From Sulfurovum sp. (GTDB lineage: Bacteria > Campylobacterota > Campylobacteria > Campylobacterales > Sulfurovaceae), in contig DYMA01000004.1 in assembly GCA_020721815.1 (NCBI GenBank), positions 1-38,986 of the forward strand: DNA of 38,986 nt, written 5' to 3'. Below, one piece after another: positions 24,654 to 35,408 of this stretch; the first letter of the stretch is position 1; each line of letters opens with the position of its first letter. Below the pieces are notes generated by a model. It ran no database searches, was not told where the DNA came from, and worked only from the letters and a program-made list of their open reading frames with translations. The position numbers were made by a program, and so were the translations under genes.

Positions 24654-25166
24654 ATGATACGAGAGATTTTAATCTATCCCGATAAACGTCTCGGGATTGT
24701 CTCAGACGAAGTTCAAACCTTTGATACCCAACTTCATACTCTTCTTGATGATATGTATGAGACAATGGTTGCCCGTAACGGTGTAGGATTGGCCGCCATT
24801 CAAATAGGCATTCCCCAAAGAGTACTTATCATCAATCTGCCCAACGAAGAGGATGGCACACAACCCAAAGAGAAGACTTTGGAGGTGATTAATCCACTCT
24901 TTTTGATTCAAGAGGGTACAACAAGCTATCAAGAGGGGTGTCTAAGTGTCCCCAATGTCTATGAAAATGTCAAGCGTTTCAAATACGTCAAGATTGAGTA
25001 TCACGATCGTTACGGCAACAAGCAGATAGTAGAGAGTGATGAGTTTTTGGCGATTGCTCTACAGCACGAGATAGAACATCTCAACGGTCACGTTTTTATC
25101 GAAAATCTCTCCTTTGTCAAACGCAAAAAGTTTGAAAAGGCATGGCGAAAAAAACACAATCTCTAA
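24654..25166 (+). CDS. def: Peptide deformylase
   Basis: GVGLAAIQIGIPQRVLIINL; EGCLSVPNVYENV; LAIALQHEIEHLNGHVFIE. Confidence 0.97.
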   Translation: MIREILIYPDKRLGIVSDEVQTFDTQLHTLLDDMYETMVARNGVGLAAIQIGIPQRVLIINLPNEEDGTQPKEKTLEVINPLFLIQEGTTSYQEGCLSVPNVYENVKRFKYVKIEYHDRYGNKQIVESDEFLAIALQHEIEHLNGHVFIENLSFVKRKKFEKAWRKKHNL

Positions 25167-26161
25167 AAATTATACGAAATAGAGATTTTACCCTCAAAGG
25201 GGGAGATACCTCCTTCCTCTCGCCATGGCCAACGGGTCTTCATGTATTCGTTGGAGTAGATGATGGAGAATTTGCCTTTGCGACTATCTGCCCAACCCAA
25301 TGAGAAGCTGTAATCAGACTCATAATCCTCTTGCAAACCCCAATCACTGTACAAAAAGATACTACCCGCTACAAAAAACTTATCGTAAACAAAGGATTTC
25401 ATCGAGAGTTGGAGTTTGTGTTGATTGTAGTGCAAGGATTTGTCGTAATCAAACGAAAAAGAGCTTTTATCACCGATTTGGCGGTATCCTGATAGAGAGA
25501 CAAAAGTAAAATCTTTATTGGGAATATGCTTGATTTTGGGGACTAATAAAAACTCTTGCCATTTGGTTCGATAGTGTATCTCCCATGTGCCATCCCCAAA
25601 TCCCGCACTCTTTTCATCTGCATTAAAGCGATTGTTTTCGTAGTTGGAGTAGGAAAATCCCCAGCTATCAAGGGCGTAGGAGTCGTAACCAAAAGTGTAG
25701 TAGAAATTGGGTTGATAATCACTATCCTTAAATCCATTGGTATCAAGCATTAAACCTGTAGTAAAGTACAAATGGCTCAAAGGAGAAAATCTCAAACCAA
25801 TGTCAAAAGTTTCACGCGTTGCATCTCTACGGGTGAGATTTTGAATAGAGCTATTGAAGCTTAGTGTTACATCAAGCCAATCTTTGAAATCTTTAAAAAG
25901 CTCTTTCTCTTGCGGTTTGGCAACCAAAGGGGTTTTGGATTTGCTTTGGAGTTTTTCGTAGTAGTGGTTTATATCGTGCATAATAGAGCTGTTGGTGTTG
26001 CGATTGGTGGTGTGTTCAAGAAGTGTGAGTTTGAGTGCTTCCACCTTTTTGATAGGTTTTTTTGGCAAAGGCGTAATGTATTGAATGATTGATGGAGGTA
26101 TGGTGTTAGGCTTTTGCGTACTATTGACCTCATGTGAGAGGGTGTTGTTATCATCATGCAA
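25163..26161 (-). CDS. Outer-membrane beta-barrel (probably the frameshifted C-terminal part of the 26209-29316 protein)
   Basis: Low-complexity linker then amphipathic strands (FDIGLRFSPLSHLYFTTGLMLDTNG...) ending ISISYNF with terminal Phe; no signal peptide of its own; the frame continues upstream as NSPTLPIETNQTTAQEDNNTTTTLHDDNN... into the A10 tract. Confidence 0.65.
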   Translation of the reverse strand: MHDDNNTLSHEVNSTQKPNTIPPSIIQYITPLPKKPIKKVEALKLTLLEHTTNRNTNSSIMHDINHYYEKLQSKSKTPLVAKPQEKELFKDFKDWLDVTLSFNSSIQNLTRRDATRETFDIGLRFSPLSHLYFTTGLMLDTNGFKDSDYQPNFYYTFGYDSYALDSWGFSYSNYENNRFNADEKSAGFGDGTWEIHYRTKWQEFLLVPKIKHIPNKDFTFVSLSGYRQIGDKSSFSFDYDKSLHYNQHKLQLSMKSFVYDKFFVAGSIFLYSDWGLQEDYESDYSFSLGWADSRKGKFSIIYSNEYMKTRWPWREEGGISPFEGKISISYNF

Positions 26162-26208
26162 GGTGGTGGTTGTGTTGTTATCTTCTTGAGCGGTGGTTTG
26201 GTTTGTCT

Positions 26209-29200
26209 CTATCGGGAGTGTTGGGGAATTTTTTTTTTACCCTTTTGGCATGGAAGCTCAAATGTAAGATTGCCATCATCAATAAGACGATTTTCATAAG
26301 GGAGTCGATAGTCGTAGCGATAGTAGCGGTTGCCCCACAAAAATTGGCTCGAATCAATAGAGGTTTGCACTATTGTAAAATTTCTATCGTCGCCATCGTT
26401 TAAAAATCGCTTGTCAAATTCAAGAGCGCTAAGGTTGGTATCAAGGGTTTGGAGATAGTGCTGTGCCTCTTGGAGTGTGGCAAATGAGCCAACTCTTACG
26501 ACATAATCCTCCCCTTGAGGTTCAATGCGAACCAAATCATCGGCTTCAAAACGTTTAAGGAGTTTGAGTGCATAATCAAAAAGCTTCATGGTAGGCGAAC
26601 TAATGGTGTAGCGTTTGGATTGAAGCAAAGGCTTTTGGAGGGCGATTTTATCGCGTGCTATGGGGCTTTTGTGATAATAAAAATTGCCAATTTGTTTGTA
26701 GTAAATTGATTCCAATACCGCAGCGTTGGTCATAATGTTAAGCGACTTATTGGGGCGTTTAAAGTCGTGATAGTAGCCTCCAAACCACCCCTCTTTGGGA
26801 TTGTAAAAATCTTTAACGCTTTGCTTGAGTAGCCTTGCATACTCATCAATATGCCCATAGAGTGCATCATAGATAAAAGCCGCTTTGGTGCTGTAGGTAG
26901 AAAAATCCTGAAGCGGTTCATTGTAGCGGTTAAAATCACTCCAGTGGCGACCGTTGTTATAGACATCATTAGCCACAAAAAAAGGTGCTTGGTCAAGATG
27001 TTCATGGCTTGAAGTGGTTATCTTGTGGGTTGTGTCGTAGCGATGCTTTTGAGCCAAAAAGAGATTGGAAGCGTAGTGTTTGTATTTAAGGTAGTAGGGA
27101 TGCTCCATCAAACTCCACAAAAAAGTCTCGGCGTTGCTTACTTTGTGTACGGCTCCTGCGGGTACTTCGTAGTCGTCAATGCGTGGATAGTGCAAGTGCC
27201 GCTCATCGATAAAATGGCTGTAGGTGTGAATATTAAAGAGTTTGAGTGCACTGTGGATGTAGTGTTCGATGGAAGGGTCTCCTATTTGGTAGAGCTTTTC
27301 GGTTGAGTTGCCCTCATAGGTATCGATTTGAGCGTTGAAAGTTCCATGGGTAATGGCACGAGCGAAGTTAAATCTTGAAACAATAGTGCAAATATCATCG
27401 CTGTATTTTGGGTATTGATTTTGCAAATGGTAAAGTCCGCTCATCATGTGTGCTACGGGATAGATTCTCCACCCCGCACCTTGTGCATCCTCTTCTCCAA
27501 ACTCTTTGGTCATTTTGGCTGTCGTAGCGTTGTAGTAGGTATTGGGTAGTTCATTGTTATAAAGTGGCAACGTTTTAAGCGTCTCCATAAGTTTGTCGAT
27601 TCGTTCATCAAACTTCTCTTGAGTGATAATATCCAAACTTCTAGCCGCTAACGTTCCTAAAATAGTTTTGCCAATGGCATCAACTTCAATAATAGGATAG
27701 TTGTGATAGGCATTTACGATACCCGTATCGGGATTGTAGTTGTTTTCAAAAAATACCCACGCTATCTTTGCATCCTCTTTGTCCTCCAAAACGCTACGAT
27801 TGTAGTCTGTATCGATGGAGTAGGGCTCTAGGATGATTTTGGATTGCTCACTGGGCAAACATCGAAAGCTATTAACGTTGTTGCGATAGTAGTCATAAGT
27901 GCCTCGCTTGTTGATAGATTTAAGTTTTTGAAGAGGTCCCATGTTTTTAAAAAGCAGTGAAGTCAATATGATGGAGTTGGTGTTGAGCGTCACGGCTCTG
28001 TTGGCTCCAGGCATGGTTTCGTAAATCCCTGCATAGTAGCCCCTCTCTTTGTCGTAATTCTCATCCATCAAATCAAAAAGCTTGGCGGTGTAGTTGGTAT
28101 CAAAGAGGACTTTCATGCCAATAGCGGCTTTGGTACTAATGGATTTAAACTCTTCATAATCTTGGGCGTGATGATCGACAATCTTCCATGTTTCAAGATT
28201 TTCGTAGATGGTGTTGTAGAGAAAATAGGGAGCTTGGTCGATATGGTCTTCGGCTACGGCTGTAAATTGTGCGGTTTCATTAAATCTCGCCTCTTGAACA
28301 TCGTAAATGCTTTGGATGTATTTGCCCGATTCATTATCGTCCACACCGTAATCAAAACCTGTGTACCAATAGGACTCACTCCCTACAAAGGCACTGTAAA
28401 AATCTCGTGTCTCAGTAGGAACATCCACGCCAAAAATAGTGACCTCTTTCATAAACTTGTAGCTTCTTGCTTCGCTTAAGTCAAACCCCCAAATCTCATA
28501 ACTTCTAGCCAAATACTCTTCGTATCCCGTAAGGGTTTCGTGGTTGAGGTTGGTTTGTCCATCAAGGTATTGCGCACCGTACATATTGCCCACGACGCTT
28601 AGGCTACGGCAATAGCGATAACGAAGCAGAAGTTTTTCGATGGTGGGATTGAGTGTATCTTCGCACTGTTGGAGCATATTGAGTGCGGCCATTAGTCTTG
28701 TCAAGTCGGCTATCGACCACCCTATCCCTTGAGGTTGTTCGACATTGTTGTAATCGGTCATCTTCGCAGAGAGGGTATTGTAGGTTTTGTTGGGCAGTTC
28801 GTTGTTAAACAGCTCCATCTCTTGCATGGTCTCTAAAAACCGATTGATCATCTTTTCAAATCGCTCTTGGGTAATGAAGCCAAACTTTTTGGCACTGTAG
28901 ATACCGTAAAGTCCATTAGCCCAATCCCATACCGATGCTGAGGGGTAGTTGTCGGCTGCGTTGATGAGTCCTGTTTGTTCGTTGTAGTTGTTTTGAATAT
29001 ACTTCCACGCAACACGAGCCATTTTAAGCTCCTCTTTGGTGGGCTTTGTGAGGAGTTTGCACGGGTCGTTTGGGTCTTCTAAGATGGTCTCATTTTCATC
29101 ACTCTTGTTGTTGTCGCAACAAAGTTGCATAGGATTGATACAGCAGTTGCTCTTGGAGGCAAGGGCAGTGCGATTATGCTCTGTTGATTTTGATGGGAGA

Positions 29201-29316
29201 ATATCATTGTAGATATAAAAATAGAGCGGTAGAGTCAAAAAGAGCAATAAAAACAACAAACCACCCCCAATAATCCATAAGGCTTTTGTAGAGTTGTTTG
29301 ATTTTTTCTCTTTCAT
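26209..29316 (-). CDS. Membrane-anchored protein with two DUF3131-like domains and SPOR-like C-terminal region
   Basis: 1035 aa; N-terminal TM; domain 1 ARVAWKYIQNNYNEQTGLINAADNYPSASVWDWANG...GIGWSIADLTR...EDHIDQAPYFLYN; domain 2 AKIAWVFFENNYNPDTGIVNAYHNYPI...GAGWRIYPVA...HEHLDQAPFFVAND; SPOR-like DYVVRVGSFATLQEAQHYLQTL. Confidence 0.8.
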   Translation of the reverse strand: MKEKKSNNSTKALWIIGGGLLFLLLFLTLPLYFYIYNDILPSKSTEHNRTALASKSNCCINPMQLCCDNNKSDENETILEDPNDPCKLLTKPTKEELKMARVAWKYIQNNYNEQTGLINAADNYPSASVWDWANGLYGIYSAKKFGFITQERFEKMINRFLETMQEMELFNNELPNKTYNTLSAKMTDYNNVEQPQGIGWSIADLTRLMAALNMLQQCEDTLNPTIEKLLLRYRYCRSLSVVGNMYGAQYLDGQTNLNHETLTGYEEYLARSYEIWGFDLSEARSYKFMKEVTIFGVDVPTETRDFYSAFVGSESYWYTGFDYGVDDNESGKYIQSIYDVQEARFNETAQFTAVAEDHIDQAPYFLYNTIYENLETWKIVDHHAQDYEEFKSISTKAAIGMKVLFDTNYTAKLFDLMDENYDKERGYYAGIYETMPGANRAVTLNTNSIILTSLLFKNMGPLQKLKSINKRGTYDYYRNNVNSFRCLPSEQSKIILEPYSIDTDYNRSVLEDKEDAKIAWVFFENNYNPDTGIVNAYHNYPIIEVDAIGKTILGTLAARSLDIITQEKFDERIDKLMETLKTLPLYNNELPNTYYNATTAKMTKEFGEEDAQGAGWRIYPVAHMMSGLYHLQNQYPKYSDDICTIVSRFNFARAITHGTFNAQIDTYEGNSTEKLYQIGDPSIEHYIHSALKLFNIHTYSHFIDERHLHYPRIDDYEVPAGAVHKVSNAETFLWSLMEHPYYLKYKHYASNLFLAQKHRYDTTHKITTSSHEHLDQAPFFVANDVYNNGRHWSDFNRYNEPLQDFSTYSTKAAFIYDALYGHIDEYARLLKQSVKDFYNPKEGWFGGYYHDFKRPNKSLNIMTNAAVLESIYYKQIGNFYYHKSPIARDKIALQKPLLQSKRYTISSPTMKLFDYALKLLKRFEADDLVRIEPQGEDYVVRVGSFATLQEAQHYLQTLDTNLSALEFDKRFLNDGDDRNFTIVQTSIDSSQFLWGNRYYRYDYRLPYENRLIDDGNLTFELPCQKGKKKIPQHSR
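26229..26238. repeat. 10-nt homopolymer (T10 on +, A10 on coding strand) at an ORF junction
   Basis: gggaaTTTTTTTTTTaccc; one extra A (or two fewer) fuses the 1035-aa ORF to the barrel ORF. Confidence 0.9.
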
Positions 29317-29320
29317 TGAT

Positions 29321-30631
29321 TTACCTTAATGCCAAAAGATGCCCCTCTTGAATAAAAAAGAGTGATTCTAAGATAACAGCATTGGTATTGCAACTAATAG
29401 CACTGTTTATTTTTTGACTATTTTCATAGATACCGCTATACCAACCTCTTTGACTACCCAAAGTTGCAACGGCATTGATAAGATTTTGTGTATAATCGGT
29501 GCGATAGAGTGCATACATTGCAAAGGCGGTTTTGGTGCTAAGTTGTCGTTTGTCTTGATAGATTTTGCCCGTCTCATCAATGGCTACCCATGCTTGATTG
29601 TTTACAAAGATAGAGTTGTAGATAAAGTAGGGTTTGGTATCAATATGGTCTTCGCTTACAGCGGTAAGGACTCCTGTTTGCTCAAAGCGTTTGGCTTGTA
29701 CTTTGTAGAGGCGGTAGCTAAACTCTTTGGAGTAGTAGTCCCACCCAAACTCTAATCCATCAAGCATATAAGGCTCCATCAATACATAGTTGTTGGCTCT
29801 AAAGGTGTTGCTATCACGAATATCGTAAGGCACATCCACGCCGTAAATCTCCTCAAAATCCAAAAATCTATCGTATCGCATGGAGTTGAGTGCATCGATA
29901 CCAAAAAGAGCATAGACTTTTGCAGCGTACTGCTCATACCCCAATCGTCCCTCTTGGAGCAATCTATTGCGATTGTTTTGTTTGATAGCTCCGTAGAGTT
30001 CGCCATTTTTTTGCAAAGCATTAAAATCCCATTTGGATAGTAGTTTACCGATGCGATTGTTGTAGTCTGGATAGTGACGACTTAGATAGGCAAGGGGCAC
30101 AAAGATACGCCCAATATCAATCACCGACCAACCAATCCCACCCTCTACGGCTTTGTTGGTGTAGTCACTCATTTGGAGGGTTTGGGTATGATAGACTTTA
30201 TTGGGTAATTTGCCTTGATAGAGTTCGATTAAACTAAGCGTTGTTAAGAGTTTATCGACTCTTTGATGAAAAGTAGCCTCATCGACAATCCCCAAACGAT
30301 AGGCACCAATCAATGCAGTAAGGTAGTTACCGCTATCCCACAGTGTGGTTGATGGGAAGTTATCGACAGAATTAACCAAACCCGTGGAGGGATTGTAGTT
30401 GTTTTCAAAATATCGCCACGCAATTTTAGCCCACTCTTGCTCTTGGGGAGTCAATGCTCTTTGGATTGGCGTTTTGGGTAGCTCTTTAGATGTTTTTATC
30501 TCAATCATTGAGTATCCTTGTTTGCGTAAATCAATGTTGTTTAAAAAGTAAATCAATACAAAACCCACAATCAATGCTATTAAAAATACAATATGGTGTC
30601 TTGCTTTTAAAAAATTATCTTTATTTATCAT
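29321..30631 (-). CDS. DUF3131-like membrane-anchored protein
   Basis: 436 aa; N-terminal TM; AKIAWRYFENNYNPSTGLVNSVDNFPSTTLWDSGNYL...EGGIGWSVIDIGR...SEDHIDTKPYFIYNSI...SCNTNAVILESL. Confidence 0.8.
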   Translation of the reverse strand: MINKDNFLKARHHIVFLIALIVGFVLIYFLNNIDLRKQGYSMIEIKTSKELPKTPIQRALTPQEQEWAKIAWRYFENNYNPSTGLVNSVDNFPSTTLWDSGNYLTALIGAYRLGIVDEATFHQRVDKLLTTLSLIELYQGKLPNKVYHTQTLQMSDYTNKAVEGGIGWSVIDIGRIFVPLAYLSRHYPDYNNRIGKLLSKWDFNALQKNGELYGAIKQNNRNRLLQEGRLGYEQYAAKVYALFGIDALNSMRYDRFLDFEEIYGVDVPYDIRDSNTFRANNYVLMEPYMLDGLEFGWDYYSKEFSYRLYKVQAKRFEQTGVLTAVSEDHIDTKPYFIYNSIFVNNQAWVAIDETGKIYQDKRQLSTKTAFAMYALYRTDYTQNLINAVATLGSQRGWYSGIYENSQKINSAISCNTNAVILESLFFIQEGHLLALR

Positions 30632-30634
30632 AAG

Positions 30635-32383
30635 TTATCCTTCAAATCTATAACGAGCTGCTTTTACAATCGCAAAAAGAGCTAAGATATTATATATTGC
30701 CCACATTAAATTGACACTGTATCCCGTAAGATACTCACGATAATCCAATAAAAGCATAAGTGTTGCATAGATAATTGCCACAAGATACAACCCAATCAAA
30801 CCCACCTGAAATTTAACCAACGGCAAAAAGTTACCGCTTTTGGCTACTTTGGAAGTGACGACAAATTGTATCGGTTTGCCTCTTATAACATCCCAAAAGG
30901 CACTAAGGACAATAGGAAAAATGGCAATAAAAAATTGTGCCCCTCGATTGGTCGAAACGCCCCATGTTGCTACCAATAGAGCCAATTGATTGAAAAACAA
31001 AAAGGGAACAAGATGAATAAAAAACTCCATTGAGTAGCTCTCAACAGGAGCAATATTGGTGAGCATATAGACAATAGGCGAAAAGAGCAACACAAGAAGC
31101 CAAATCGCTCCCGTATAGGACCAAAAGGTACTAAAGTACATCAATTTTTGTCCCAAACTCAACCCCGAACTCAAAAATCTCTTAAACTCTCTTTTGGTCA
31201 AATCAATCGTTCCTCCTGCGTAACGGAAGCGTTGAGCCGACCATGTGAGCATATCCAAAGGCGAGAGCATTTTGGATTCAACCTTAGGGTGGAGAATGGA
31301 GCGGTATTTTTTGCCTTTGTAGGCATGGATGAGGAGTGAGGTGTAGATATCTTCGGAGGTGTGATAGGCAAGGTACTCGACATCAAGCTCACAAATGGCT
31401 TTGGTTTTCTCTTTGGATTGGGTTATGCGTTCTGCCCATCTATGGAGTGCCACTTCACGCAAGGCATCGGTTCGGTGAATGGAGGTAGCACCGCAACAAA
31501 ATGAGGCGTTGTAGTGGTTGCGTCTTCTTTGAATCACATCAAAAAACATTTGAGGATCATTGGCAAAAATATCCTTGCCCGTCTCAATTTTACCCGTCAA
31601 TTTTTGCACCCAATGAGCCAATATTTCGCCTACTTTGCCCCCTTTTTGACTCCATGAGTTTGTCAGTGACTCTCCTTGTGTGGTGTCGCAAAACCACTGC
31701 GGAGTCTGTACCCATGCGACATTGGGGTCTTTGAAATAGCCCATGGTGTTGAGGAGTATATCGGGAAAAAGGCGTGTATCGGAATCAATAATGACAATAA
31801 AATCACCCCCCGTTACATCCATGGCGTGAGCAATTGCCCCTGCTTTGCGTCCTTTGTTGCCTTTGCGGGTAATTTGCACTATCTCTTGCGTTTGTGCCAT
31901 TTGCGTCATCAAAGGATTGTTGCTATCATCAAGCAGATAGATACCCACTTGCCAACTATCAAGTTTTCTAAGCCTTTTGGCTGCTTTGATACTCTCTTGT
32001 ACCAATAGGGGTTCTTCGTTGAAGACGGGGATATAGATATCAATCTTTATGGCTCTATTGGAGTAATGCTCTTTGGCGATTACTACCTCTTCCATGGTAA
32101 GTGGTGGCGTTTGAGGCGGGGTATCGTCAATCTTCCAAAAGTTTATCACGACCAAAAGAGTCCCTACAAACATCATTGTTTCGGCAAACGCCAAAGGAAT
32201 AGCAAACCACAAAGCATCCATATTGAGCGACTCGCTCCATCGATACTCCAAATACCAAAAGCCTAGCATAATGGTAATAATACCCAAAAATTGAAACGCA
32301 CTCTCTTGCCACGGGGAGTAGGGTTGGGGAGCGGGAGGGGTGCGTCCATCAAATGAGCTATCCAAAAAATAGAGTGGATTCAT
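30635..32383 (-). CDS. Cellulose-synthase-like family 2 glycosyltransferase (no PilZ domain seen)
   Basis: 582 aa; IYIPVFNEEPLLVQES, YLLDDSNNP, FIVIIDSDTRLFPD, FCCGATSIHRTDAL, AYHTSEDIYTSLLIH, SAQRFRYAGGTIDL; multiple TM helices. Confidence 0.88.
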   Translation of the reverse strand: MNPLYFLDSSFDGRTPPAPQPYSPWQESAFQFLGIITIMLGFWYLEYRWSESLNMDALWFAIPLAFAETMMFVGTLLVVINFWKIDDTPPQTPPLTMEEVVIAKEHYSNRAIKIDIYIPVFNEEPLLVQESIKAAKRLRKLDSWQVGIYLLDDSNNPLMTQMAQTQEIVQITRKGNKGRKAGAIAHAMDVTGGDFIVIIDSDTRLFPDILLNTMGYFKDPNVAWVQTPQWFCDTTQGESLTNSWSQKGGKVGEILAHWVQKLTGKIETGKDIFANDPQMFFDVIQRRRNHYNASFCCGATSIHRTDALREVALHRWAERITQSKEKTKAICELDVEYLAYHTSEDIYTSLLIHAYKGKKYRSILHPKVESKMLSPLDMLTWSAQRFRYAGGTIDLTKREFKRFLSSGLSLGQKLMYFSTFWSYTGAIWLLVLLFSPIVYMLTNIAPVESYSMEFFIHLVPFLFFNQLALLVATWGVSTNRGAQFFIAIFPIVLSAFWDVIRGKPIQFVVTSKVAKSGNFLPLVKFQVGLIGLYLVAIIYATLMLLLDYREYLTGYSVNLMWAIYNILALFAIVKAARYRFEG

Positions 32384-32392
32384 CTATTCCCC

Positions 32393-33562
32393 TTACATCT
32401 TTTCATGAAACGACTCAATGGTCTCTTTGATCTCTCGTTTGAAGGGGCTAAGCTCTCGTCTGCCTTGTCTGGCATCGTGAATCAAAAAATCAAGCCCCAC
32501 CCCTTTGAGGTCAAGGTAGCCTCCATCGGGGTCAATAATAAACTGTTGTGTGATAATGCGGTGTTTGAAATGAAGATTTTTGTTGATTTTGGTATAGGGC
32601 AAAACCACACTCTCTTGAAGATGCACCCCCTCTTCGATAAGCACTCCTGAACCTATCATGGTAGGACCTACTATCTTTGCCCCTTTGCCAATGCGTACGC
32701 TATTGCCAATATAAACAGGAGGGGTAATATCAATCGCATCAAAATCAATAGCGCAATTGATACCGCACCAAACATTGGGGGCTATCTCTTTGCCGTAGGG
32801 TTTGACTTGATTGATTTGACCTTGCAAAAGCTTGATGTTGGCTTGATAAAAATCTTTGGTCGTTCCTACATCAAGCCAATAAAATGTGGGTGCATGGGCA
32901 TAAAAAGCAATCCCTTGTTCTACCAGTAGCGGCAACAGCTCACCGCCAATATCGTACTTTTGATTATCGGGAATATAATCCAAAATCGAAGGCTCAAAGA
33001 TATAGATACCCGTATTGATAATATTGCTTTTTGCCTCTTCCACGCTGGGCTTTTCTTGAAAGCTTTTGATTTGACCCGTTTCATCGCACACAACGACACC
33101 GTAGCGGTAAACCTCACTGGGGGGTATCTCTTTGCATACAACCGTAGCAATAGCTCCGTGGGCTTTGTGAAAAGCCATAGCTTGTGTTAAATCCAAATCG
33201 ATAATAGCATCCCCACACACCACCAAAAAGCTCTCATCAAAAAAAGAGGCAAAAGCTTGTACTTTTTTCAATCCACCCGCAGACCCCAAGGTGTGAGGGA
33301 CAAGCTCTCCGTTTTCTACATTTCCCTCAAGCGAATAGGCGATATGAATACCGTGTGCGTGTCCGTTTTGGTAGTGAGCTTCAAGCATATCGGCTTTGTA
33401 GCTTACGGTAACAATCACTTCATTGAAGTTGTGATTTCTAAGCAAATCAAAAAGATAGCTTATAATAGGGCGTTCAACTATGGGAATAAGAGGTTTGGGA
33501 ACGCAATAGGTCAAAGGACGCGCACGACTCCCCTCGCCTCCGCTTAATACAACTGCTTTCAT
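32393..33562 (-). CDS. Sugar-1-phosphate nucleotidyltransferase (mannose-1-P guanylyltransferase-like) with left-handed beta-helix region
   Basis: MKAVVLSGGEGSRARPLTYCVPKPLIPIVERPII...VVCGDAIIDLDL...NTGIYIFEPSILDYIP...WLDVGTTKDFYQAN; hexapeptide-like IGNSVRIGKGAKIVGPTMIGSGVLIEEG. Confidence 0.9.
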   Translation of the reverse strand: MKAVVLSGGEGSRARPLTYCVPKPLIPIVERPIISYLFDLLRNHNFNEVIVTVSYKADMLEAHYQNGHAHGIHIAYSLEGNVENGELVPHTLGSAGGLKKVQAFASFFDESFLVVCGDAIIDLDLTQAMAFHKAHGAIATVVCKEIPPSEVYRYGVVVCDETGQIKSFQEKPSVEEAKSNIINTGIYIFEPSILDYIPDNQKYDIGGELLPLLVEQGIAFYAHAPTFYWLDVGTTKDFYQANIKLLQGQINQVKPYGKEIAPNVWCGINCAIDFDAIDITPPVYIGNSVRIGKGAKIVGPTMIGSGVLIEEGVHLQESVVLPYTKINKNLHFKHRIITQQFIIDPDGGYLDLKGVGLDFLIHDARQGRRELSPFKREIKETIESFHEKM

Positions 33563-33894
33563 TGTCTATCACCCGCAAGAGATTCCATGCTTAAATCATC
33601 AATCAATTGTTCAAGCCCTACCAATCGAATAAGCTCTTTGGGTTGTTCGCCTAGAGGTGCTAATCTAAGAGTACCACCTGCTTGATGAATATGTTTTAAA
33701 GCAAAAACAATAAAGCTAAGCCCCATACTATCCATAAATTCTAATGCACTTAAATCAAGTACAATGTTTGTGTTGTGATTATGGGTTGCCTCCCTAATTA
33801 TCTCTTTGAGTTGTTCAAGACGATCAAAATCAAAACGCTTTGTGTCAATTTTGATATGCAATTGATTATCTTTGTCGGTTATAATGATTTTCAT
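33559..33894 (-). CDS. STAS-domain anti-sigma factor antagonist-like protein
   Basis: 111 aa; NIVLDLSALEFMDSMGLSFIVFALKHIHQAGGTLRLAPL; 4-bp overlap with the nucleotidyltransferase start. Confidence 0.85.
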   Translation of the reverse strand: MKIIITDKDNQLHIKIDTKRFDFDRLEQLKEIIREATHNHNTNIVLDLSALEFMDSMGLSFIVFALKHIHQAGGTLRLAPLGEQPKELIRLVGLEQLIDDLSMESLAGDRQ

Positions 33895-33989: not shown

Positions 33990-35408
33990 TTAGTCTAATG
34001 AGAAAACCGTATCAACAATATCTTGCTTAAAAACAATATCACCCAATCGATAGAGACTCTTTTCATCAATAGCGGAAGTTTTGATGATGCCCAAATGGTA
34101 CTCATTGAAGATAAAATATTGGTATCCGTTAATATCATTTTGAGGATTATCAAAGAGATTCATCACCGCAAACCCAAAAAGACCGTTTTGGACAAGCTCC
34201 TCTTTGGAGTCCATAAGCTCCCAATAGACACTGTTTGCCTCATCTTCCCAACCATCCACATCAAGCTCACTGTACTCTACGACTGCGTTTTGATTGCTAT
34301 CACTCCATGTTGCTGTTGCAATAGCGATATAGGGCATAAAGACAGGTTTGTTGTATTTTTGATGCAAAAAGCTGCTCATATTGCTAATGCGTTTGGCTAG
34401 ATACTCAATCCCTAGCTCCTCATTGGTGTAGGCTTTGGGATTGGGGGCTTTGTAGTATCCTGGATTGTCGTGGTCTCGACTAAATTGACCTATCATTTGA
34501 TTAAAAGAGATAAAATCAAGCTTATCTTTCAAGGCATTATAGATAATCTCAGGCTTTGCCCATTCGCTTTGGTCACCCAATGCGCAATGGTCGTAACCGC
34601 ACTTTGGATAGAGTTCATCGACTCCTCTATTACCCGTATCCATCATGCTTAGCGAAAAGAGTACATCTTGGGTATTGTTTTTGATTGTATCAATGGCGTT
34701 GGAGATAATGGATGCAAATTTCTCTTGATTGGCTTGTGAGCTTATGACAATATCTTTGTTAAATTCAGGCTCCATAATCACAATTTTTGTTCCCTTAAAC
34801 TGTTGCAAAAATTTAGCCAAACGCATATTATGCTCATAGTACTCTTGGATATGTGCTTCACTGGGCAATCCTCCATCAAGCTCATCGGCAAAATACCAGT
34901 AGCTAAAGACAGGGATATAGCCTCTATCCATTACGCTTTGAAGCTTTTTGACATCGTACCAACTCTCTTGCCAATATTTTGTTGCCCAACAGACTATATA
35001 TTTAGAGTTTTTTAGTTTTTGTTGGAGGTAATCAAATTGAGTACCATCGAAATTTTTAATATCTTGATAGTAGCTGTTTTGGCTAATGGGTGTTTCACCC
35101 ACCAAATCCCACGCACTTAGCCAAACTACCTCTTGGGTATTGCCCTCAAAACCAAACGAACTGTTATCACCAAAGCCAACATGAAAAGAGTTGTAGAGTT
35201 TATCAGCAGTAATGACGCTGTTGGTGTCCACTGGAGTCGTTGTGTTGTTTGGATCTGCTGGATCAACGCTGTTGCTAGGTGGAGTCGTTGTATCGTTTGG
35301 GGATGGGGGATTTTGCGTATCACCGACAATTGCATCACTCGAACCGCCACCGCCACCGCACCCATTGAGAGCGAGAATCAAAAAGAGTAATAAAAACAAC
35401 TTTCTCAT
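33990..35408 (-). CDS. Lipoprotein with glycoside-hydrolase-like (TIM-barrel-like) domain
   Basis: 472 aa; lipobox LNGCGGGGGSS, Pro/Thr-rich linker, then VVWLSAWD..., YIPVFSYWYFADELDG, IVIMEPEFNKDI, FISFNQMIGQF, KPVFMPYIAIATATW; TIM-barrel-like pattern with acidic residues at strand ends (inferred). Confidence 0.6.
   Translation of the reverse strand: MRKLFLLLFLILALNGCGGGGGSSDAIVGDTQNPPSPNDTTTPPSNSVDPADPNNTTTPVDTNSVITADKLYNSFHVGFGDNSSFGFEGNTQEVVWLSAWDLVGETPISQNSYYQDIKNFDGTQFDYLQQKLKNSKYIVCWATKYWQESWYDVKKLQSVMDRGYIPVFSYWYFADELDGGLPSEAHIQEYYEHNMRLAKFLQQFKGTKIVIMEPEFNKDIVISSQANQEKFASIISNAIDTIKNNTQDVLFSLSMMDTGNRGVDELYPKCGYDHCALGDQSEWAKPEIIYNALKDKLDFISFNQMIGQFSRDHDNPGYYKAPNPKAYTNEELGIEYLAKRISNMSSFLHQKYNKPVFMPYIAIATATWSDSNQNAVVEYSELDVDGWEDEANSVYWELMDSKEELVQNGLFGFAVMNLFDNPQNDINGYQYFIFNEYHLGIIKTSAIDEKSLYRLGDIVFKQDIVDTVFSLD

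Follow-up and report, generated by a model that had tools for sequence, protein, structure and literature searches.

Several bacterial genes are known in which a run of adenines precedes a stop codon and a change of frame is needed to read on. In the tssM1 (Citrobacter rodentium) and tssM3 (Yersinia pseudotuberculosis) system, an envelope protein is encoded with an A-run shortly before the 0-frame stop, and its full length requires a frame change (PMC4256274). In tssM1 the run is A11, transcriptional slippage amounts to 20-25%, and both forms of the protein are needed (PMC4256274). Two-ORF dnaX genes of the Chlorobium type carry an A10 run, and their short form ends at a stop immediately behind the slip site (PMC3711429, PMC5009743). 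Among dnaX orthologues, some species employ RNA polymerase slippage and others -1 ribosomal frameshifting (PMC3711429, PMC5009743). The dnaX heptamer is A_AAA_AAG, and a heptamer followed by a stem-loop is the textbook signal for -1 ribosomal frameshifting. Homopolymers also underlie the phase variation of surface genes, where poly-A and poly-G tracts are known (PMC3441752; Helicobacter pldA and fliP, PMC11756786).

The window studied here is a stretch of 38,986 nucleotides from a Sulfurovum-type MAG (2.41 Mb, 277 contigs), and it holds a comparable arrangement on its minus strand. ORF1 (26209-29316, 1035 aa) encodes an N-terminal membrane anchor or signal, two DUF3131 domains, a conserved module of ~130 aa and a short tail that ends in a slippery run. 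Its 3' end reads GGT AAA AAA AAA ATT CCC CAA CAC TCC CGA TAG. The plus strand carries T10 at 26229-26238, which is A10 in the coding sense; this confirms the run that had been noted at the junction, and it is the proposed slip site. It contains an in-phase A_AAA_AAA heptamer (26230-26236, 0-frame codons AAA AAA), and the 0-frame TAG that ends ORF1 (26209-26211) lies 18 nt past this heptamer. A second frame, at -1 relative to ORF1, opens at the A-run and remains open from 26236 to 25163. It comprises 357 codons from stop to stop, encodes a Thr/Pro/Lys-rich linker and then a barrel, and overlaps ORF1 by 28 nt (26209-26236). The A10 is the longest homopolymer in the window (the next longest has 8 nucleotides). 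Just four A10 sites exist assembly-wide, and the remaining three fall within intact ORFs. Genome-wide A9 counts give a chance expectation of ~3e-4 A9 runs in the ORF overlap of the window and of 1e-4 to 3e-3 in that of each relative. The A-run at the ORF junction is therefore not a product of chance.

We propose, with a probability of roughly 0.7, that both ORFs belong to a single gene whose decoding includes a programmed -1 frame change, so that a short product and one with the barrel arise. Most transcripts or ribosomes would end at the 0-frame TAG and yield the 1035-aa protein, which would be membrane-anchored and periplasmic, with two glucanase-like DUF3131 domains. A fraction would slip at the A-run, either because RNA polymerase inserts an extra A or because the ribosome moves back one base on A_AAA_AAA. 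This fraction would read on into the linker and the 14-strand barrel, producing a form of ~1380 aa that could reach the outer membrane and anchor there. The cell would always have both forms, probably as a way of tethering a polysaccharide-handling module of the adjacent cellulose-synthase-like locus to the outer membrane at a set ratio. The likeness to tssM lies in the envelope protein, the position of the run and the frame change needed for full length. In contrast to tssM, the protein is a different one, the recoded part is an outer-membrane barrel, the -1 offset is fixed over six genera, and slippage is inferred, along with its rate, its agent in the window genome (RNA polymerase or ribosome) and the glycan role. 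The analysis itself shows the anatomy, the conserved frame and run, selection on the barrel, a natural in-frame version and, in one relative, a classical frameshift signal.

The barrel domain (25166-25954, minus strand) is supported by alignments, AlphaFold2, Foldseek and dN/dS, and ends in a C-terminal Phe. Its AlphaFold2 model has 14 strands (pLDDT 87), and the PDB matches of this model in Foldseek are outer-membrane barrels, mostly porins. Sequence searches with the barrel or ORF1 found no relatives of solved structure. Between the window and the PC08-3 MAG, both of which carry A10 and are unfused, dN/dS is 0.11 for the barrel domain, 0.15 for the whole -1 ORF and 0.14 for ORF1. The barrel is under purifying selection between two genomes that both have it out of frame, and thus appears to be translated in its own frame. 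This speaks against a decaying pseudogene fixed by the frameshift, as do the full-length barrel ORFs and the conserved C-terminal residue among relatives at 24-47% identity; broken or partial copies in two genomes, G137 and G152, would suit such decay, which we nonetheless regard as scarcely credible.

The overlap resembles that of translationally coupled genes, and ribosomes could in principle begin the barrel at a separate start or re-initiate once they have passed the ORF1 stop. The TTG at 26161, which the ORF finder had taken as the barrel start, has neither a Shine-Dalgarno sequence nor a signal peptide. In none of 12 relatives does an ATG occur within codons 1-50 of the barrel ORF; the earliest one is found 51-149 codons into it or is missing altogether, and two of the 12 have none before the barrel. 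The start scan of these relatives, which is crude, saw no signal peptide at the start of the barrel ORF and one GTG with a Shine-Dalgarno-like stretch, far inside the ORF; the Shine-Dalgarno part of the scan is weak, given that many true ORF1 starts fail it too. Together with the existence of two natural fusions (see below), this makes two separate genes very improbable. The scan agrees with the earlier note that the barrel ORF lacks a good start or signal peptide of its own, and the barrel would have to rely on the export signal encoded upstream. If recoding does take place, the conclusion drawn there, that the protein as sequenced probably stays unexported, is likely to be mistaken.

Barrel homologues were found in 14 of the 176 genomes of the family and in further genomes of the order, including Hydrogenimonas and G179; searching the families of G179 and G325 gave no new members. 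The ~130-aa C-terminal module of ORF1 is conserved in the alignment, and it co-occurs with the barrel in 10/10 genomes of the order sample. Within the family, only two genomes depart from this pattern: G137 has just a fragment of the barrel, and in G152 the linker breaks. Since the two parts are found together in this way, we regard ORF1 and the barrel ORF as one evolutionary unit and, by this token, one gene. In the G152 contig (L109, 1952-2510), the linker shifts frame again after A11-TAG and ends before the barrel, reflecting either a degenerate copy or an assembly error.

The frame relation is just as uniform across Sulfurovum of caves and the deep sea and their relatives. In 13/13 unfused readable junctions from six genera (12 clean ones plus G152, with A11 then TAG and the later linker break), the barrel lies at -1, with a run of A9, A10 or A11 and, in one case, A6G. 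An in-phase A_AAA_AAA or A_AAA_AAG heptamer is present in all 12 clean junctions and in G152. A run of at least 8-9 A marks the shift site in the window (A10) and in 11 other unfused junctions, the exception being HLG_WM_MAG_02 (L036, A6G). If the two OFF frames are taken as equally likely, all junctions would agree in frame by chance with P = 0.004 when nine lineages are counted and 0.03 when six genera are counted. The 0-frame stop lies at most one codon from the last heptamer in 8/12 junctions and 6/9 lineages (P = 1.8e-4 on lineages, at a per-junction chance of 0.12). Altogether, two genomes have the barrel in frame, 13 junctions have it at -1, and none is cleanly at +1. The Faavne contig L031, whose name ends in _pilon, has broken frames at other places too and was therefore not counted; read as it stands, it does not have the barrel at -1.

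The in-frame genomes are FS08-3 (A11) and SZUA-451 (A10). FS08-3 and PC08-3, MAGs from Italian sulfidic caves, are the closest relatives of the window genome. The tract is A10 in the window and the PC08-3 MAG and A11 in FS08-3, whose barrel is 99% identical to that of the window. In FS08-3, ORF1 and barrel form a single open frame of 1381 aa that reads ...GKKKNSPTLPIETN..., as had been predicted for the addition of one A. Slippage in FS08-3 and SZUA-451 would have the opposite effect and truncate the protein, as stops come up within 4 to 18 codons at the corresponding run. They would thereby parallel tssM3, described as an in-frame sister that slips to a shorter form. Since both genomes are in frame without recoding, recoding does not appear to be essential to every lineage.

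These tract differences speak for the reading put forward in the earlier note, a phase-variable switch in which replication slippage interconverts A10 (barrel OFF) and A11 (barrel ON). Window positions 25200-28110 and the FS08-3 contig L028 share a block of ~2.8 kb that differs by four substitutions and the A10/A11 indel only, and the flanks of this block are ~94% identical. With the indel being one of just five differences, the tract seems to be fast-mutating, although an assembly error could also account for it. The block stems either from recent recombination between cave Sulfurovum lineages or from a chimeric contig, and either the tract changed after the block was shared or one assembly miscalled the run length. 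A change in tract length is plausible and may re-set the ratio of short to long form. As in H. pylori pldA and fliP or the poly-A tracts of V. cholerae O1, there is an in-frame homopolymer, a surface-exposed product and a length that differs between close strains. In contrast to these, the frame offset is conserved over genera, the run is dispensable in one lineage and no random states are seen. Under switching, every one of the three phases should be represented among the relatives, so the finding of one phase at A9, A10 and A11 in all unfused readable junctions argues against it. OFF would moreover be the consensus in nearly all lineages while the barrel stays under purifying selection, and a DNA switch explains neither the stop right after the run in most lineages nor the run-less relative with a stem-loop. 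What the earlier note said would refute the switch, a fixed tract length and separate genes with a signal-peptide start, is not what the relatives show either: tract length varies among them, and in none does the barrel carry a signal peptide of its own. We therefore consider an ON/OFF switch unlikely as the main function, although phase switching may be superimposed on recoding. Conserved programmed recoding, by transcriptional slippage and/or -1 frameshifting, fits better, since under a random on/off switch in the DNA a single frame would not persist.

The run-less relative, HLG_WM_MAG_02, is particularly informative. Its junction reads GCA AAA AAG AAT TAG, with an in-phase A_AAA_AAG in place of a long A-run. 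A 14-bp stem-loop (L036:4458-4505; -19 kcal/mol, z -4.2) begins 3 nt past this heptamer. None of 200 shuffles was as good, and it is the strongest 50-nt structure across both ORFs. The stem-loop is known from this single genome, and its spacer of 3 nt compares with the 5-9 nt usual for -1 frameshift stem-loops. HLG_WM_MAG_02 thus keeps the -1 relation though the run is missing, with a ribosomal signal in its place, which speaks against the shared function being that of a DNA switch. No unusual structure was seen at the junctions of the other relatives (rank 0.17 to 0.97, versus 0.003 in L036). Apart from this stem-loop, neither a shared 3' RNA structure nor a consistent upstream Shine-Dalgarno stimulator was found at the junctions of the window and its relatives, so that the window and nearly all other relatives have the heptamer only.

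The same genome weighs against an assembly or consensus error at the homopolymer in one or both assemblies, with a gene that is in truth fused. Several facts would suit such an error: every genome compared is a MAG, miscalls are frequent in runs of 10-11 A, the gene is fused in SZUA-451 and FS08-3, and the Faavne contig is broken in several places. On the other hand, independent assemblies from six genera arrive at the same -1 frame at differing run lengths, and FS08-3 was sequenced by Illumina HiSeq (PMC4288042). Errors would also yield +1 and cannot create A_AAA_AAG with a stem-loop. We hold this explanation to be improbable, considerably more so than a phase switch.

If the gene is recoded, the route may differ between lineages. 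A run of 9 A or T suffices for efficient transcriptional slippage, and in E. coli the heptamer A_AAA_AAG is far stronger than A_AAA_AAA (PMC5009743). Given this weakness and the lack of a stimulator, ribosomal slippage alone may be inefficient in the A9-A11 genomes, for which RNA polymerase slippage would be the simplest route. For HLG_WM_MAG_02, we propose ribosomal frameshifting. By the GeneTack rule, a shift in one direction only indicates ribosomal frameshifting (PMC3711429); this would favour the ribosome throughout, but is not decisive with runs of A9-A11. For the window, the two routes cannot be separated. In the window's genome, the 26 tRNA genes found include a single tRNA-Lys(UUU) and none with CUU; because this set is incomplete and G174 showed none, the tRNA counts were left out of the argument. 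The arrangement resembles dnaX of T. thermophilus, E. coli and the two-ORF type in having A10 or A_AAA_AAG and a short-form stop right after the slip site. It differs from dnaX in that the product is not a polymerase subunit and that the stem-loop is found in one relative only, without an upstream Shine-Dalgarno stimulator there.

A broader, tentative reading, to which we give somewhat less than even odds, is that the barrel is added to the periplasmic glycan-processing protein by recoding alone, and that the means changes from lineage to lineage: most would use poly-A slippage and one A_AAA_AAG plus a stem-loop, while two have the parts fused in frame. Here, the mutable tract would re-set the short-to-long ratio via DNA, uniting phase variation and recoding. 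The natural series of A9, A10, A11, A_AAA_AAG with stem-loop and fused genes lets one ask how RNA polymerase slippage trades for ribosomal frameshifting. Should the proposed recoding be real, gene callers cut this gene in two in nearly all relatives, and a polysaccharide locus of a common group of sulfur oxidisers has an outer-membrane component that is misread as a signal-less barrel. The case also cautions against taking every homopolymer in a surface gene of Campylobacterota for a phase switch; what has to be asked is whether relatives keep one frame. In the literature searched, no paper ties the two-ORF gene, DUF3131 or Sulfurovum to recoding.

Two further observations concern the relatives. 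One genome carries elsewhere a second, partial copy of the C-terminal ~97 residues of the barrel, 88% identical (L027, G014:C26:8880-9170), and the linker in L040 contains a stretch of N between near-repeats of one sequence.

The surroundings of the gene suggest what the protein may do. ORF1 has an N-terminal membrane segment and matches DUF3131 (PF11329, E 3.4e-190) in two stretches. The model of this domain is weaker than that of the barrel (pLDDT 69), and it matches best to 'putative glucoamylases' of Bacteroides and to endo-beta-1,2-glucanases, while BcsZ ranks lower. The two-ORF gene lies downstream of four minus-strand genes. These encode a membrane-anchored companion protein with a single DUF3131 domain (29321-30631, 436 aa), a processive, cellulose-synthase-like family 2 glycosyltransferase (30635-32383; its match to the CelA domain is partial and below the cut-off), a sugar-1-phosphate nucleotidyltransferase (32393-33562) and a STAS-domain protein (33559-33894). 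From the glucanase-like DUF3131 model and the cellulose-synthase-like neighbourhood, we infer a role of the ORF1/barrel protein in polysaccharide handling. Polysaccharide loci are known to encode outer-membrane export porins of the PgaA, BcsC and PelB type. Like these, and in keeping with a GH144-like beta-1,2-glucanase fold, the protein would place periplasmic glycan domains ahead of a C-terminal barrel, beside a cellulose-synthase-like GT2. Unlike these, it has no sequence match to a solved structure, and its barrel would be reached via a frame change. A putative lipoprotein of 472 aa without a Pfam or NCBIfam match (33990-35408, minus strand) heads the same cluster.
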